Positions 40,759 through 48,748 of a DNA stretch of 51,490 bases are shown piece by piece. The notes under the pieces were generated by a model. The model was given only the letters and a program-made list of their open reading frames with translations, had not been told where the DNA came from and did no database searches. The stretch is from NCBI RefSeq assembly GCF_021729155.1, contig NZ_JAJQYA010000037.1:1-51490 (forward strand), in the 5' to 3' direction. Both the position numbers and the translations under genes were made by a program. This stretch comes from Membranihabitans marinus (GTDB lineage: Bacteria > Bacteroidota > Bacteroidia > Chitinophagales > Saprospiraceae). Every line of letters begins with the position of its first letter. The stretch's first letter is position 1.

Positions 40759-41204
40759 TAGTGTTAGGTATAATTTTATTTTAATAGATCTTGTTAAGGA
40801 AATAAGATTGGTTTTTTAATAGAATTAGCGATTTATAGAAATTTCACAAATGAAAAAGAAACTAATGCGATTCGGAATAGAATCAGAGGTCATATGTAGA
40901 AATGGACGTTTTATGTAGGAAGGGATGAAAGCTGCTGTGTAAATAAAATCTATAACGTCAGTGTTTAATTTTTATTGTGATGATTGAAAAGTATTTTTTG
41001 ATTCTAGATTTTTTCCTCATTGAATATTTGAATTTTATTACCGACTAAAGTCGATAACTAGCTTATCAATGTATTGCATATTATAGAAATGTAGGTATTT
41101 AACAGTCGTAATAATGGAGGGGAAATAGTTATTGGATTGTAAATTAATGTATGGTATAAGCCGTATATTATGTTGTTTTAGCGGGTAAAAAGTCTGTTTT
41201 ACTT
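40759..41204 (+). other. Non-coding gap between the two sulfatase genes
   Basis: 446 AT-rich bases with no open frame, clear terminator or repeat. The end of this gap should hold the promoter of the broken sulfatase gene, but no convincing box was found. Confidence 0.4.
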
Positions 41205-42563
41205 ATGAAAAAAATGTATTTCTTGCTCGTCTTTGTATTTTGGGTCTTGTCTCAAATTTCTGCCTAAAATAATGTCAATTTTCTGGTTGTTTTAGTCGAT
41301 GATTTAGGAAAAACAGATCTTGGAACTTATGGGAATCAATTTATTGAAACCCCGAATATCGATCAGTTGGCGAAGGAAGGAATGAAATGGGAAAATGCCT
41401 ATGCTGCAGCTCCAGTTTGCTCCCCTTCTCGTGCTGCATTTTTAACTGGTCAGAATCCTGCAAGAGTCCATTTTACTGGACATATTACTGCGATAGGAAG
41501 GCATCGACACCCTGAGAATAGTCTGATCATCCCTCCCAATGATTTGATGTTTATACCATTGGAAGAAATAATTTTGCCTGAACTGGTGAAACCATCAGGT
41601 TATAAAACCATCAGTATTGGTAAATGGCATGTGGGGCCTACTGGGTATTGGCCCATGGATATGGGATTTGATGAAAATATTGCAGGCTGGACCCATGGCA
41701 GTCCCCCTTCCCATTTTTATCCTTATGAAGATGAAAATAAGAAATGGAACCCAGCTATTCCAACATTAGAGGGTGGAAAGAAAGGGGAGTATTTGTCCGA
41801 TCGGTTGACCGATGAAACGGTGAATTATATAAAGCGAAATAAGAATAATCCATTTTTGATTTATCTACCTTATTACGCAGTTCATTCCCCTTTGCAAGCC
41901 CCACAGGATTTGGTTAAAAAATACCAAGACAAACAGTTGTCATCCAAAGGAAACTCCTCAATTGATCCTGTTTATGCTGCCATGGTTGAAAGGTTGGATT
42001 ATAATATTGGTCGTTTAATGGATGCATTGAAAAAAGAGGGTTTAGAGGAAAATACCGTGGTGATTTTTGCCTCAGATAATGGTGCTGTAAAGAAATCTTC
42101 TGATATGATGGGATATAGAGAAGGCAAGGGACATCTCTATGAAGGAGGGATTCGCGTACCTTTCATTATGAAATGGCCCAATAACATAAAACCGAATACG
42201 GTGAATGAAAATAGAACTAAGTCCGAGGATATATTTGCAACCATAGCCGATATAGTGGTATACAAATCTGAACCTGGTCATATAATTGATGGAAAATCAC
42301 TTCGTCAACAGTTTTTAGATCCGAATGTGGAGGAGAGTCGAGATATGTTTTGGTATTACCCTCATTATTCTCCACAAGGCAATGCTCCAGGAGGCGCTAT
42401 TATTTCTGGAGATTATAAATATATCGAGTTTTACGATCCAGTGGGATACGAATTGTATAATTTAAAATTAGATCCGAGAGAGGAGAACAATTTATTTTCT
42501 ACCATGCCGGAAAAGGTGATTGAGATGAGTGGTATATTTAATAAGTGGTTTCAAATGGATTGA
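41205..42563 (+). pseudogene. Type I sulfatase gene interrupted by a stop codon in the signal peptide
   Basis: From ATG 41205 the frame reads MKKMYFLLVFVFWVLSQISA and then TAA at 41265-41267, where a CAA (Gln, the usual first mature residue) is expected. Straight after the stop the same frame continues as an intact sulfatase: VVLVDDLGKTDLGTYGN, CSPSR (codons 72-76 from the ATG), a GKWHVGP block, SDNGA, and a C-terminus nearly the same as the partial sulfatase at 1-366. Translation from the TTG at 41367 would miss the first metal-binding aspartates and the signal peptide, so the product would be inactive. One base change separates it from a working gene, so loss is recent, or the base is a sequencing error. 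Confidence 0.8.
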
Positions 42564-42600
42564 TAGCGTATTTCGGTGGTATATATTACCATATAATTTT

Positions 42601-43396
42601 TACAGATTTAGCTCAGATGCTTTTCACCACAGATGGCCGCAGATTCGCACAGATTTAGCACAGATGGTTTTCACCACAGATGGCCACAGATTCACACAGA
42701 TTTAGTACAGATGATTTTCACCACAGATGGCCACAGATGGACACAGATTCAGCCCAGATGATGTTCATCACAGATGGCCACAGATTCACATAGATTTAGT
42801 ACAGATGATTTTCACCACAGATGGCCACAGATTCACACAGATTTAGTATAGATGATTTTCACCACAGATGGTCACAGATGAACACAGATTCAGTACTGAT
42901 GATATTCACCACAGATGAACACAGATAAACAGAGATTTAGCAGGGATGATATTCACCACAGATGGCCACAGATTCACACAGATTTAGTACAGATGATTTT
43001 CACCACAGATGGCCACAGATGGCCACAGATTTAGTACAGATGGTTTTTACCACAGATGGCCGCAGATGGACACAGATTTAGTACTGATGGATTTCACCAC
43101 AGATGGTCACAGATAGACACAGATTTAGCACAGATGATTTTCACCACAGATGGTCACAGATACACACAGATTTAGCACAGATGCTTTTCACCACAGATGG
43201 CCGCAGATACACACAGATTTAGTACAGATGATTTTCACCACAGATGGCCGCAGATACACACAGATTTAGTACAGATGATGTTCACCACAGATGGCCACAG
43301 ATTCACACAGATTTAGTACAGATGATTTTCATCACAGATGGCCACAGATTCACACAGATTTAGTACAGATGATGTTCATCACAGATGAGTTCAGAT
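42601..43396 (+). repeat. Tandem array of a 47-bp repeat (left array)
   Basis: The CACC/CATC that begins each unit occurs at 42625 and every 47 bases after that to 43377 (42672, 42719, 42766, 42813, 42860 and so on) with no indel: 16 full units plus partial units at both ends. Each unit holds four (A)CAGAT boxes: CACCACAGAT, GGCCACAGAT, TCACACAGAT, TTAGTACAGAT, then GATTTT. The boxes are 10, 10, 11 and 16 bases apart. Units differ by point changes (GGCC/GGTC/GAAC, TTTAG/TTCAG). The array lies at the 3' side of the GxxExxY gene. It is not a CRISPR: there are no unique spacers. Confidence 0.95.
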
Positions 43397-43449
43397 ATTT
43401 TTATAAGGTCTAAATTAAAAAGCAATAGGTGTAGGAGTAAAAAGTTATA

Positions 43450-43821
43450 TTACATGATAATTCGGTTGATTCCTTTTTTCATATCGATAACGTTAAAATT
43501 TAGGAGTAAGCCTAGTTTTATTCCTGATAATTTTAAATATGTCATTAACTGTGCTCTATGAATTGGAGCGATTTTATCTACAGATTTTAATTCAATAATA
43601 ATTTGATTTTGAACCAATAAATCTATTCGATACCCAATTTCCAATTTTATATTGTCATAAATTATAGGAAGTGGTTTTTGTTTTTCTACTAACAATCCCG
43701 ATTTTATTAATTCATAAGCTAGACATTCTGTGTAGGTCGATTCTAAAAGACCAGGCCCCAGTTCGGAGTGGGTTTTATATACACAGCCAATAATTTTGTA
43801 GGTTAAATCATTTAATAACAT
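43450..43821 (-). CDS. GxxExxY protein (PD-(D/E)XK nuclease-like)
   Basis: The protein is 123 residues from the ATG at 43821; a TTG at 43854 would add 11 residues, but MLLNDLTYKIIGCVYKTH is the usual start for the family. GLLESTY is the name-giving GxxExxY motif. RIDLLVQNQIIIELKSV supplies the D...(E)xK core of the PD-(D/E)XK superfamily, and the C-terminal GLLLNFNV is also typical. The biological role is unknown; a nuclease acting on DNA or RNA is inferred from the fold. The gene is read against the direction of the flanking tandem repeats and sits alone between them, which suggests that gene and repeats form one unit. Confidence 0.9.
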   Translation of the reverse strand: MLLNDLTYKIIGCVYKTHSELGPGLLESTYTECLAYELIKSGLLVEKQKPLPIIYDNIKLEIGYRIDLLVQNQIIIELKSVDKIAPIHRAQLMTYLKLSGIKLGLLLNFNVIDMKKGINRIIM

Positions 43822-43950
43822 GTTGATTACATTGTGAGGATAATTATTATCCAATGTAGATTGATTAATGTAATTCGTATTAGCTCAAAGAATCTCTTAG
43901 GTAATTACTTAGCATTAAAACAAAGTGCTTAATAATTTGTTTTAAAAATA

Positions 43951-44157
43951 TTTCAGCACAGATGCTTTTCACCACAGATGGTCACAGATAGACACAGATT
44001 CAGCACAGATGGATTTCACCACAGATGGTCACAGATACACACAGATTAGCACAGATGATTTTCACCACAGATGGTCACAGATACACACAGATTTAGCGCA
44101 GATGGATTTCACCACAGATGGCCACAGATAGACACAGATTTAGAAGTGATGGTTTTT
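43951..44157 (+). repeat. Tandem array of the same 47-bp repeat (right array)
   Basis: Unit starts (CACC) are at 43970, 44017, 44063 and 44110, so the spacing is 47, 46 and 47; the second unit has lost one T. Sequence and orientation match the left array. A partial unit precedes 43970 and the last unit decays after TTTAG. The array lies upstream of the GxxExxY start codon and could include its promoter region. Confidence 0.93.
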
Positions 44158-44266
44158 GATATTGATAGAGCAGTATAATTGTAATTATCTACTATTCCTT
44201 TATCAATTTTTGGTCATCATGTTATGGTTTTGGTATATTTACTCGTATTAAAAAAATATATTATCT

Positions 44267-45970
44267 ATGACCTATTTCAAGTTGTCCATTTTTTTACTTT
44301 TTTTCTTGTTTCTGCAAAAAGGCTATGGTCAGCCTCCCGGTGAAACGATGGTCAATCCCCACGCGGTAGCGACTTATGAATGTGCTGGTCTGTATTGGAA
44401 AACCATGGAGTCTGGACCATGTACGGTTAGGTATAGAGCTGTAGGTAGTGAAATCTGGCAGGATGGATTGGACTTGGTCTATGATGAGAGAGAGGGAGAA
44501 TACAGGGGGAGTATAATAAATCTAAAACCCTATACCAAGTATGAGGCGGAATTGTCACATCGATCAGAAAATACAAAGATGGAATTTACGACCAGGAATG
44601 ATGATTTTTCAATTGGAAAAACGACTGTCATACCTGCGGGGGAATCAGATCAAACCATAACTATAACCGAATCAGGTAGGCCTGATGCCTATCATTTGGT
44701 AACTGTGCCCGCAGAGACTAGGTCGGTGCTGAATATCAAAAATGTGTACGACGCTGGTATAATTATCGATGCGGATTACGTCATTGTTCGGGGGATAGAG
44801 GTGAGAAATGCAAGGAAGGATGGGATTCGGATTAAAAAGGGACACCACAATATCGTCATAGAAGATTGTTACATTACTTTTTGGGGCCGTATAGGTGGAT
44901 CGATAACCAATGGCAATATGGAAGGTAATTACGATAGTGGTATTTACGCCGAGAATGATTGCTGGAATCTTACCATTCAGCGCAATCTTATCGAAGAACC
45001 CAGAGGGGCTTCTAATGACTGGGAAACTGGTCATCCCGCAGGTCCACAAGGTATTTCCATTTTTCAAAGTTTAGGTGGTAATGTGATTAGGTACAACGAT
45101 ATCGTATCCACTGAAGATCATGGATTCAATGATGGTATTGGAGGAGGAAGTAATTATTCCACCGTGGGCAATATGAATCGCGATTCCGATATCTATGGCA
45201 ATTTGATTCGAAGCGTATGGGATGATGCCATTGAAGTAGAGGGAAGCAATAAAAATGTAAGGGTTTTTGGAAACTATGCTGAAAAGTTTTTTAACGGTGT
45301 GGCTACGGCTTCCACTACTCATGGACCGATTTATATATTTAGAAATGTCATGGGAGAAAGCCGAACAGGACAAAGAAATACAATGGGAGGAGCATTTGTC
45401 AAGACGGGAGAAAGAGAACCCTATAATGGTGGTCGAAGATATGTGTTTCACAATACGATATTACAGCCCAACGGGGTAAAGGATGCTTTCACAGGCCATG
45501 TAAATCCCAATTGTGTGACTCGTAACAATATTTTTGACCTACCTGGACGATTGGCCACTCACCGTGAAAAAGAACCTGCCAGTGACTATGACTATGATTA
45601 TTTTTCTGGTTTGTCGAAAGGGACAGCTGAAGAAGAACACGGTATTGAATTTTACACCACCCCTGCGGGGACGAGATTATATGTGTCGTCCACTGGTCTC
45701 GAATTTTATCCAAGACTCTATATCAATAGTATCGCCTGGGGTAAATATCCCTATGAATTTGGCGATAAAAAAAGAAATATCACCGACCCAATGATACAGC
45801 TTAAAAATCCTTTAATCGATGGAGGCATTGTGCTTAAAGGGTTTAATGATGATTATCGAGGCGATGGTCCAGATCTTGGTGCTTTCGAAACAGGGGAGCG
45901 GGCATTGGAATTTGGTCGTCGCGCTTACTTGAGTTATGATGAAGGCTGGTGTCCTTGGGAAAAATATTAG
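44267..45970 (+). CDS. Secreted right-handed beta-helix protein (possible polysaccharide lyase or glycosidase)
   Basis: The 567-residue protein has a signal peptide ending GYGQ (about residue 22). Residues 30-115 resemble a fibronectin type III-like module (CTVRYRAVGSEIWQDG, LKPYTKYEAEL). From about 125 to 480 there are repeated short strands with Asn ladders (DYVIVRGIEVRNARKDGIRI, HHNIVIEDCYI, WNLTIQRNLI, GGNVIRYNDI, DSDIYGNLIRSVWDDAIEVEG), the pattern of a parallel beta-helix. Such folds occur in pectin/alginate-type lyases, epimerases and some glycosidases. No catalytic signature is clear. It is followed 81 bp later by a GH-like propeller gene on the same strand. Confidence 0.75.
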   Translation: MTYFKLSIFLLFFLFLQKGYGQPPGETMVNPHAVATYECAGLYWKTMESGPCTVRYRAVGSEIWQDGLDLVYDEREGEYRGSIINLKPYTKYEAELSHRSENTKMEFTTRNDDFSIGKTTVIPAGESDQTITITESGRPDAYHLVTVPAETRSVLNIKNVYDAGIIIDADYVIVRGIEVRNARKDGIRIKKGHHNIVIEDCYITFWGRIGGSITNGNMEGNYDSGIYAENDCWNLTIQRNLIEEPRGASNDWETGHPAGPQGISIFQSLGGNVIRYNDIVSTEDHGFNDGIGGGSNYSTVGNMNRDSDIYGNLIRSVWDDAIEVEGSNKNVRVFGNYAEKFFNGVATASTTHGPIYIFRNVMGESRTGQRNTMGGAFVKTGEREPYNGGRRYVFHNTILQPNGVKDAFTGHVNPNCVTRNNIFDLPGRLATHREKEPASDYDYDYFSGLSKGTAEEEHGIEFYTTPAGTRLYVSSTGLEFYPRLYINSIAWGKYPYEFGDKKRNITDPMIQLKNPLIDGGIVLKGFNDDYRGDGPDLGAFETGERALEFGRRAYLSYDEGWCPWEKY

Positions 45971-46051
45971 TCAAAGGTAAGTTCGTTGATTGAATGGGCA
46001 GAATTCATATTTTTTAGAGTAAAGTAATTGTATTATAAAAAGAAGTTCATC

Positions 46052-47539: not shown

Positions 47540-48748
47540 TTCATTATGATCAGTGGTTTAAATTATTGTAGATTCTAGATCCTATACCAAATCATTTAGG
47601 TATAAATACATCTGGTTGTGGTATATTTCAATGTTTTATCGGTTTAATAACCGTATAGTTACATATTAGCCTATGGTTGAATAACTCCTTTTTATCAATA
47701 TATAACACACATTTTATTTGAATCTGTATTTCTATTTATTATGTAACCTTGCATTTATTTTATTATTAATAAATGTGAATATTTTAATTAAATAAAAATC
47801 TAATTTTTTTATCTAATTTTTTTATCTAATTTTTTGGGTATTGCATTATTGTAAATAGAAAACATTTATTTTCAAGTCGTCGAATTTTGATCCATTTTAT
47901 GGAATCAATGCTTCCCTAAGAAACATTGTGATTACATCAAGTAGCTTAAATGTAAATTTTTACTAGGTTTATTCATCCACAGATATATAACTAACCCTAT
48001 TTTTCTTCAATTTCGCTTGGATTTATGGATAAGATGTCACAGAAATTAGAGCTATAATGATTTGTAATAATGTGTTTTTATGTATGGGGTATTTATGTAA
48101 TTTGATTTTTATTGTCAAGAAAAATATGGAATACTTTTTGTCGACGTATTACTTTTTATGTCATGTAAATTGCATTGAAAATCAACAAGAAAAATAACTA
48201 TAATTTACATATGTAATTCTTTTTCTGATAGTTAAACGATAAAGAATTGCTATTTAGCTTATAAATTTTATGATTTCAATTGGCCTAATCGCTAACATTT
48301 TCTTAAGGAAATTGGATGTTGCATTCTAAAAAGTAGTGATTATATGTAATAATAGATCGATTCTATTGTAGTACAAAAGTTACAGAATGTAGAATTATTT
48401 CTACTGGTAATATATATTATTTCTACATACTATTTTACTTAATTGTAATATTATTACGTCTGTAATGCTGTTTTTAACAATAAACAAACTATTGTATTTA
48501 AGCTTGAATTTTTACAGGTGTTAAATATTTAAGGGTGAAAATTTAAAAGTAAATGACTTTTATGTTATTTTAATTCAATGGTTTTGATTTAATTATTATT
48601 AATGCATAATGTGATCAATGTTTGCACTATGATTATATTATGTTTTAATGGATGCTGAAAGGAGTTTGTTTGTTGTAAAAGATGTTGTTGATTATATATT
48701 AAACTACAGTCTCTATATTATAATTATTTGTTTTAATATTTATTTAAT
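47540..48748 (+). other. Long AT-rich non-coding region before the surface-protein gene
   Basis: 1.2 kb without an open frame of note. It holds three copies of a 13-bp unit (ATCTAATTTTTTT) at 47798-47835 and a small hairpin GTAGAA/TTCTAC at 48389-48404. It is likely to contain the promoter and leader of the large gene at 48749. No RNA gene was recognised. Confidence 0.5.
47798..47835 (+). repeat. Three tandem copies of a 13-bp AT-rich unit
   Basis: ATCTAATTTTTTT is repeated at 47798 and 47811 in full; a third copy at 47824 is one T short. It probably arose by slippage and may be variable between strains. Confidence 0.8.

Follow-up and report, generated by a model that had tools for sequence, protein, structure and literature searches.

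A GxxExxY gene of Membranihabitans marinus lies between two arrays of one 47-bp repeat, which raises the question of whether gene and repeats belong together and what the protein would do with them. The locus is part of a window of 51,490 nucleotides (the whole stretch of DNA that was analysed, contig NZ_JAJQYA010000037.1). A first-pass annotation had described the arrangement from the letters of the window and suggested a gene-plus-repeat unit. The features of the locus were as follows:

42602..43387, + strand: left tandem array (TRF: period 47, 16.7 copies, 89% matches, 0% indels, score 1166)
43450..43854, - strand: GxxExxY gene, PD-(D/E)XK (PDDEXK_3), from the ORF list, TIGR04256/PF13366, alignment and AlphaFold2 model
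43950..44143, + strand: right tandem array (TRF: 47 bp, 4.1 copies, 89% matches, 2% indels; one unit of 46)

The GxxExxY gene was the sole ORF of at least 80 aa between 42564 and 44266, in agreement with the first-pass annotation, which had named it the only gene there. The annotation had also reported same-orientation arrays of a 47-bp repeat on both sides and, on the left, sixteen units with exact 47-bp spacing and drifting bases. Both observations were reproduced with TRF and a pattern search. Unit-pattern matches in the left array followed each other at a constant step of 47 over 16 units, from 42629 to 43334; the steps in the right array were 47, 46 and 47. The + strand reading of both arrays was ACCACAGATGGYCACAGAT, giving them one shared direction. 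The 47-bp unit represents one 'arm' with four ACAGAT words at steps of 10, 10, 11 and 16 (TRF consensus and spacing counts). The left array lies downstream of the gene, in the orientation that right ends usually have; the right array lies upstream, where relatives mostly carry the opposite orientation. Counts of the word CRCDRAK, which is treated below, were 0 (+) and 3 (-) upstream and 0 (+) and 5 (-) downstream of the window gene. With up to two mismatches, the unit pattern had 21 matches in the 5.4-Mb genome, all 21 inside the two arrays, and the reversed control pattern had none. The same-direction arrays of 47-bp units represent a local expansion, in which the arms have probably grown in tandem to 16.7 and 4.1 units via slippage or unequal exchange. 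Array expansions were detected with TRF at other GxxExxY genes as well. A CRISPR-like array was rejected, since TRF showed the 47-bp unit to recur along the whole array at 89% matches, leaving no spacers. No cas genes were noticed on reading through the ORF list between 38 and 48 kb, and Rfam gave no match across 41000-46000 at E up to 1.

The window protein was a full-length member of TIGR04256 (GxxExxY; 152.1 bits, cut-off 35) and PF13366 (PDDEXK_3; 148.2 bits, cut-off 22), which upheld the annotated GxxExxY, PD-(D/E)XK-like identity. The listed start is a TTG at 43854, giving 134 aa; judged from the sequence, the ATG at 43821, giving about 123 aa, appears to be the likelier start. The reading frame was intact and E38, D78, E88, K90, Q102 and Y106 were all retained. 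These six residues are among 14 invariant columns in an alignment of 22 GPGLLE-type sequences, and we take the invariant E, D, E-x-K and Q-xxx-Y residues to be the pattern of RecB/Cas4/lambda-exonuclease nucleases. The AlphaFold2 model of the protein had a pLDDT of 92.6. The closest folds in Foldseek were SSO0001 (4ic1, a Cas4), LHK-Exo and lambda exonuclease, all of them weak matches (best E 0.0097, none at or below 0.001). A PDB sequence-profile search yielded no matches at an E-value of up to 1. The protein is therefore predicted, from the modelled fold and the invariant residues, to be a small single-domain nuclease of the RecB/Cas4-type PD-(D/E)XK group. Unlike Cas4, GxxExxY comprises only about 125 residues and the array is without spacer structure. 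Cysteines hold the iron-sulphur cluster of Cas4; no cysteine was invariant in the 22 sequences, and thus there was no sign of such a cluster. A second GxxExxY gene of the same genome (C3:5583-5924) had no TRF rows within 1.5 kb and hence no such array. The literature search found no function for the widespread GxxExxY family, and the two passages found on the name mention no repeat partner.

Loci of related genes were compared to see how far the arrangement extends. The sample comprised 80 contig-search loci, which were the best 80 of 584 confirmed candidates with seeds favouring the GPGLLE type, and a further 80 regions from relatives, which were the top-scoring rows of the listed matches plus the second gene of the window genome. 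Twenty lower-scoring rows, chosen from multi-copy genomes, formed a held-out set. Genes with short flanks were dropped, so that 140 of 164 genes were used for a k-mer test, 149 for an inverted-flank test and 153 for a word count. The three-word CACAGAT pattern had more than two matches only in the window genome among 100 genomes, the window genome included. Other GxxExxY loci carried TRF arrays of different sequence and similar design, with periods other than 47 bp. Within the best 80 of 584, tandem-repeat coverage was 9-10% within 250 bp of the GxxExxY gene versus 0.5-1.1% beyond 1 kb, and 23 of the 80 loci had an array at most 700 bp from the gene (TRF). K-mer repeat measures exceeded the control 99th percentile at 57 of 140 GxxExxY genes versus 27 of 732 control windows.

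Reading the flanks of 20 loci revealed that many genes without a TRF array have short inverted arms adjoining start and stop. An example is L069, with the arms TTAACCGCAGAG-AACGCGGAG-GTTCGCAAAG ... CTCTGCGCATCTTAGCACTCTCTGCGGTTAA. When the upstream flank was locally aligned to the reverse-complemented downstream flank, 71 of 149 genes exceeded the 99th percentile set by 1115 control ORFs. Inverted arms flanking the gene, rather than same-direction arrays, were the usual layout in relatives. The words in the arms were summarised as CRCDRAK and scored as at least two words upstream (+) or downstream (-) within 150 bp of the gene. On either side, they were present at 94 of 113 GPGLLE-type genes (83%) versus 72 of 1132 control ORFs (6%), a count that is no blind test since CRCDRAK had been chosen by visual reading of 20 of these loci. 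Both sides carried them at 46 of 113 GPGLLE-type genes versus 2 of 1132 control ORFs. Among the 20 held-out, more divergent loci, CRCDRAK was detected at 7 of 13 GPGLLE-like genes. The spacing of the words was mostly 8-10 bp with a mode of 9. Variants in other genomes included CGCAAAG, CACAGAG and CGCAGAT, among others, and the variant of the window genome was CACAGAT.

The arm motif was specific to the protein type. In the comparison of types, based on 149 genes with four split genes also excluded, GPGLLE-like genes had CRCDRAK in 98 of 116 cases and the word GTCTGA in 3 of 116, whereas GNGFQE-like genes had GTCTGA in 18 of 28 cases and CRCDRAK in 2 of 28, both of which also had GTCTGA. GTCTGA was chosen from the same loci as those tested, and occurred at one of three GNGFQE-like genes of the held-out set. 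Several genomes with both protein types kept the two words separate. One of them was the window genome, with CACAGAT at the window gene and one GTCTGA at its second gene. Protein and motif divergence were correlated over 106 loci (Mantel r 0.40, p 0.0005), and of the three nearest relatives of the window protein in this set, the nearest, L064, had CACAGAG and the other two, L097 and L063, had CACAGAT. Within a locus, distal motif clusters and those beside the gene were alike (28 loci, p 2e-4). Part of this signal and of the Mantel correlation could stem from common ancestry and from base composition.

The arms also occurred without a gene. In 61 genomes of a second genus, 50 of which had GxxExxY, an arm pattern had 1137 matches versus 36 for the reversed pattern, 11 of these 36 in the single genome G154. 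Genomes with GxxExxY (n=50) had up to 147 matches with a median of 8, and genomes without it (n=11) had at most 4 with a median of 0. At least five matches were found in 35 of the 50 gene-bearing genomes versus 0 of the 11 others (p 1.8e-5). The number of matches also correlated with genome size; a per-Mb test still held (p 5.5e-5). Five of the 50 gene-bearing genomes had no matches, including G173 with six genes and G168 with two. A second pattern was applied to 100 genomes around the window genome, representing 91 genera, of which 61 had GxxExxY and 60 had it above the family cut-off. It had 364 matches versus 24 for the control pattern, and at least four matches were present in 19 of 61 genomes with the gene versus 0 of 39 without (p 3.3e-5). 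One of the 19, G077 with 16 matches, had only a weak gene match (E 1.2e-5); scored as gene-less, it changes the counts to 18 of 60 versus 1 of 40. Permutation within families gave p 7.5e-4 for the 100-genome set, and phylogeny is controlled only in part in this association of gene and abundance. The first-pass annotation had proposed to check how often gene and repeat occur together. Most GPGLLE-type genes indeed had cognate repeats; however, many repeats lay far from the gene, in genomes that bear it. Type-specific repeats in relatives, together with the finding that copy-rich genomes nearly always bear the gene, indicate an unrecognised gene-plus-repeat system.

The gene-less elements were analysed for structure. 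The findings on dispersed inverted doublets apply to relatives of the window genome. Of 67 gene-less elements from the sampled loci, some of them copies inside one tandem array, 56 folded with z below -3, and 62 of the 67 lay outside ORFs of at least 100 aa. A 94-nt example folded as DNA with -42.1 kcal/mol (z -13.9). The outer ends of the listed elements were mostly TAACC...GGTTA, with T-rich and A-rich outer flanks. The dinucleotide between the first two words varied among elements and was equal in both arms in 24 of 47 pairs versus 7.5 expected. These 47 pairs were hand-picked from the listed matches of four genomes and comprised pairs up to about 230 bp apart, leaving out the periodic tandem array in G160. 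The match between arms means either that pairing is selected or that the arms are corrected against each other, and it could arise from passive quasi-palindrome correction. The array in G160 consisted of whole hairpins in tandem and lay some 23 kb away from the closest GxxExxY gene listed, with 7 of its 9 matches listed. Gene-less elements were also present in the metagenome-derived loci L086, L113 and L114, labelled as Sedimentisphaerales, Zetaproteobacteria and Methanosarcinales, respectively.

One site could be followed through a genus. At the site between hemW and a cyclase gene, 33 loci of one genus (L084 being labelled Flavobacterium) were examined, 31 of which had both neighbours. Five loci were gene-bearing, and five had only 63-74 bp and no clear element, with a possible remnant in L266. 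At the remaining loci there were arm-loop-arm hairpins lacking the gene, hairpins of a different flavour, or small genes of other kinds. No clean empty site was found among the compared loci; the closest pairs of unlike state, for example L251/L264, were not clean insertions. Target-site duplications showed no excess in 65 elements (k 2-6, offsets 0-5; threshold observed >1.5 x expected + 3). In a DNA-level search of 40 genomes, the window genome included, both flanks of the window site were matched in no other genome, and G002 matched its left neighbour gene only. The near-identical gene copies L223/L224 in G020 (1022 bp, 97%) provided no boundary information, because their homologous block extends past the inverted repeats. 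Median identity of GxxExxY copies was 38% within genomes and 38% between genomes, and only 1 of 121 within-genome pairs reached 90%. Copies within a genome are thus as divergent as those between genomes, so the GxxExxY gene does not multiply like an insertion sequence. A classical transposon or insertion sequence was rejected on these two grounds, the lack of excess target duplications in 65 elements and of gene proliferation in all but 1 of 121 pairs.

We consider it fairly probable that the window gene and its arrays form one module, belonging to a REPIN/RAYT-like system that would operate with a RecB/Cas4-type nuclease. The core of the first-pass suggestion of a gene-plus-repeat unit thereby stands, given the 94 of 113 flanked genes, the motif that tracks protein type and the gene-bearing state of copy-rich genomes; in its literal form, as a CACAGAT array, it did not extend beyond 1 of 100 genomes. 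Against the reading of a module stand the failure to see movement in the comparisons above, the divergence of gene copies, the genes without arms, the gene-bearing genomes without matches and the unusual orientation of the right array of the window. In the proposed mechanism, the GxxExxY protein would recognise a short word particular to its lineage, which is CRCDRAK in the GPGLLE type and, in the window genome, CACAGAT. Repeated every 9-10 bp or so, the word would make up an arm, and the basic layout of arm, gene and inverted arm would place the gene in the loop of a potential hairpin. The gene-less arm-loop-arm hairpins would be the dispersed form, dependent on the gene-bearing one. If REPINs and their RAYT transposases are taken as the model, the likeliest role of the nuclease is to process the hairpins in single-stranded or extruded form. 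Hairpins could in this way be copied, or moved, to AT-rich intergenic positions and retained there, with GxxExxY proteins in the role of RAYTs and a different chemistry. Binding of the word, cutting of hairpin or single-stranded forms and mobilisation are activities that we infer for the protein. Among the roles offered by the first-pass annotation, that of a protein spreading the repeat is favoured, on the REPIN analogy.

The main rival is a host function. Here the repeats would be Chi-like or self-marking recognition or stop sites for a RecB- or lambda-exonuclease-like nuclease of repair, recombination or defence, and would be kept by selection, not by copying. This fits the predicted RecB/Cas4-type fold, and constant words with spacers that vary among elements would be expected if binding sites were under selection. 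A search with the window protein matched just 7 of 72,556 plasmid records and 0 of 50,697 phage records, and the gene has not multiplied within genomes, both of which suit a host function. However, the number of matches was very uneven across gene-bearing genomes, from 0 to 147, the sites surround the GxxExxY gene itself, and gene-less hairpin and absence alternate at the hemW-cyclase site. We regard a host function as unlikely, though deserving of attention.

Autoregulation is quite improbable. If the arms regulated the GxxExxY gene as operators or mRNA hairpins, this would account for their position immediately ahead of the start and behind the stop, where pairing in the transcript is expected, but not for dozens of matches in gene-bearing genomes, far above the number of GxxExxY genes, nor for the 62 of 67 gene-less elements outside ORFs. 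Still more improbable are ordinary tandem repeats made by slippage that lie near the gene by chance and have no functional link to it. The window arrays are certainly tandem expansions (TRF), the CACAGAT array was found in no other of the 100 genomes by the pattern used, and the second GxxExxY gene of the genome is without an array. Nevertheless, this explanation is largely contradicted by the controls, as the cognate word occurred at 83% of the sampled subfamily versus 6% of control ORFs, the motif tracked protein type and dispersed copies were linked to the gene in two genome sets.

The repeats could also belong to an HUH Y1 (RAYT-type) transposase, with GxxExxY as a passenger in ordinary REPIN or TIR elements. 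The loci are built like the REPtrons and TIRtrons set out in passages of two sources (PMC3733652; PMC3116915), Y1_Tnp was found in 41 of the 61 genomes of the second genus, and 7 of 24 Y1_Tnp genes had inverted flanks of their own scoring >17. This is the least probable of the alternatives and a RAYT partner was rejected within this one genus, since the arm word was present in the flanks of 0 of 24 Y1_Tnp genes (24 of 30 loci used), 13 genomes with GxxExxY and without Y1_Tnp had up to 131 matches, 4 genomes with Y1_Tnp and without GxxExxY had at most 4, and Y1_Tnp made no clear difference among gene-bearing genomes (medians 9 and 5, p 0.21).

The preferred reading, a repeat system served by the GxxExxY protein, can be extended to a broader proposition, to which we give slightly less than even credence. 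GxxExxY proteins might constitute an HUH-independent class of repeat-dispersing enzymes, each using a lineage-own word of about 7 nt, several per arm, and maintaining a private hairpin population. These populations might be among the largest unrecognised superfamilies of palindromic repeats in Bacteroidota and beyond, and the same plan might recur with four-helix-bundle and GIY-YIG-like genes. The literature covered, which lay outside most subscription papers and all preprints, contained no description of a link between GxxExxY and repeats. As protein types are tied to their own words, a direct biochemical question follows, namely which DNA each type binds and cuts. If GxxExxY disperses or maintains the hairpins, the REPIN/RAYT lifestyle arose more than once, here with an unrelated nuclease; if the hairpins are sites of a repair or defence nuclease, they represent a new kind of genome-wide mark. 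Either reading supplies a candidate partner protein for many unexplained intergenic repeats of environmental bacteria.

Among known systems, REPIN-RAYT is the closest in plan. Its hairpin doublets are described as extragenic, with each flavour beside its own RAYT and tandem clusters near the gene and elsewhere (PMC3116915, in the passages concerned), and TIR-flanked variants of REPtrons are described as TIRYT/TIRtrons (PMC3733652, likewise in part). As far as these descriptions go, the shared traits are a small nuclease-type gene between repeats, dispersed extragenic gene-less hairpins, flavours tied to the protein and tandem clusters. Repeats flanked the partner gene here too, on both sides at 46 of 113 genes and on either side at 94 of 113, and inverted dispersed doublets were present in relatives, where 56 of 67 folded and 62 of 67 were outside ORFs. 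Unlike in REPIN-RAYT, the partner is a PD-(D/E)XK protein instead of an HUH Y1 tyrosine transposase, the arms contain several 7-nt words separated by spacers of variable sequence instead of one conserved REP, and the ends are mostly TAACC...GGTTA in place of the REPIN tag GTAG (or CGTC). With an unrelated enzyme and different end tags, the elements do not qualify as members of REPIN-RAYT, although they would work in a similar way. The Cas4/RecB-type and lambda exonuclease-type proteins are alike in having the nearest folds to the prediction and in the invariant residues E, D, E-x-K and Q-xxx-Y. A constant period despite sequence drift is also a trait of the constant-length tandem repeats of Bacillus (20-21 and 52 nt); the Discussion of that source puts forward nucleoid proteins or small RNAs and mentions no gene linked to the repeats (PMC8161180). 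The present repeats differ from them in having a linked gene, and in their period, which is 47 bp here and different at other loci.

A gene within a repeat hairpin has a further parallel. The intervening-sequence elements of 23S rRNA genes carry the gene of a four-helix-bundle protein within a hairpin, and thus have in common with the GxxExxY loci an ORF placed in the loop of an inverted repeat. They differ in their unrelated protein, in the other word found in L085 and in the location of the present elements, which are intergenic rather than in rRNA genes. Four-helix-bundle genes were also encountered in the sampled loci, and the inverted flanks of five of six of them scored above the control 99th percentile.

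In genome G160, a whole gene-less hairpin was repeated six times in tandem at G160:C1:1506474-1507512, with a period of about 177 bp. Among the matches listed for this genome (seven of nine), no GxxExxY gene lay within about 20 kb of the hairpin array. In genome G020, a GxxExxY gene lay in a block of 1022 bp that occurred at two places, in inverted order and with 97% identity:

L223:4674-5693, GxxExxY-bearing duplicate block, G020
L224:4644-5662, GxxExxY-bearing duplicate block, G020

The homology between these blocks extended past the inverted repeats and into an adjoining gene.

Plasmid and phage records were searched with the window protein as the sole query. Matches were obtained in seven of 72,556 plasmid records; one of these carried thrA and radA and resembled a fragment of a chromosome. 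None of the 50,697 phage records was matched by this query.

Genes resembling subunits of type I restriction-modification systems, as judged by eye, often adjoined GNGFQE-type genes (loci L148, L168, L179 and L188). The GNGFQE-type loci beside restriction-modification-like genes had the arms TTGTCTGAATT...AGGATT.

Inverted repeats also enclosed six genes that we take to be four-helix-bundle (IVP-like) genes: L085:8451-8798 and five others in the sampled loci. The repeats around the L085 gene were built on a different word, TGTTCAGT / CTGAACACT. The inverted-flank scores of the six genes were 31, 27, 25, 20, 18 and 16, with a 99th percentile of 17 for the control ORFs.

The hemW-cyclase site held further elements. 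A small gene, GIY-YIG nuclease-like by eye and with an inverted repeat of its own, was present at this site in L248, L255 and L263; the repeat in L248 was TTTCAGCATCT / AGATGCTGAAA. In related species (L243, L244, L246, L249, L253, L258 and L272), the site was occupied by repeats or hairpins of another flavour, with the words ACGCAGA / ATCCGCGT.

Two other features of the window were recorded. One was a short array; the other was a sulfatase-like gene to the left of the 47-bp arrays, to which several other places in the same genome (G000) gave partial paralogous matches, at 74-82% DNA identity:

Window 47798-47835, short array of ATCTAATTTTTTT, 2.9 copies
Window 41367-42563, sulfatase-like gene
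G000:C35, partial paralogous match
G000:C78, partial paralogous match
G000:C40, partial paralogous match
G000:C30:97-311, partial paralogous match
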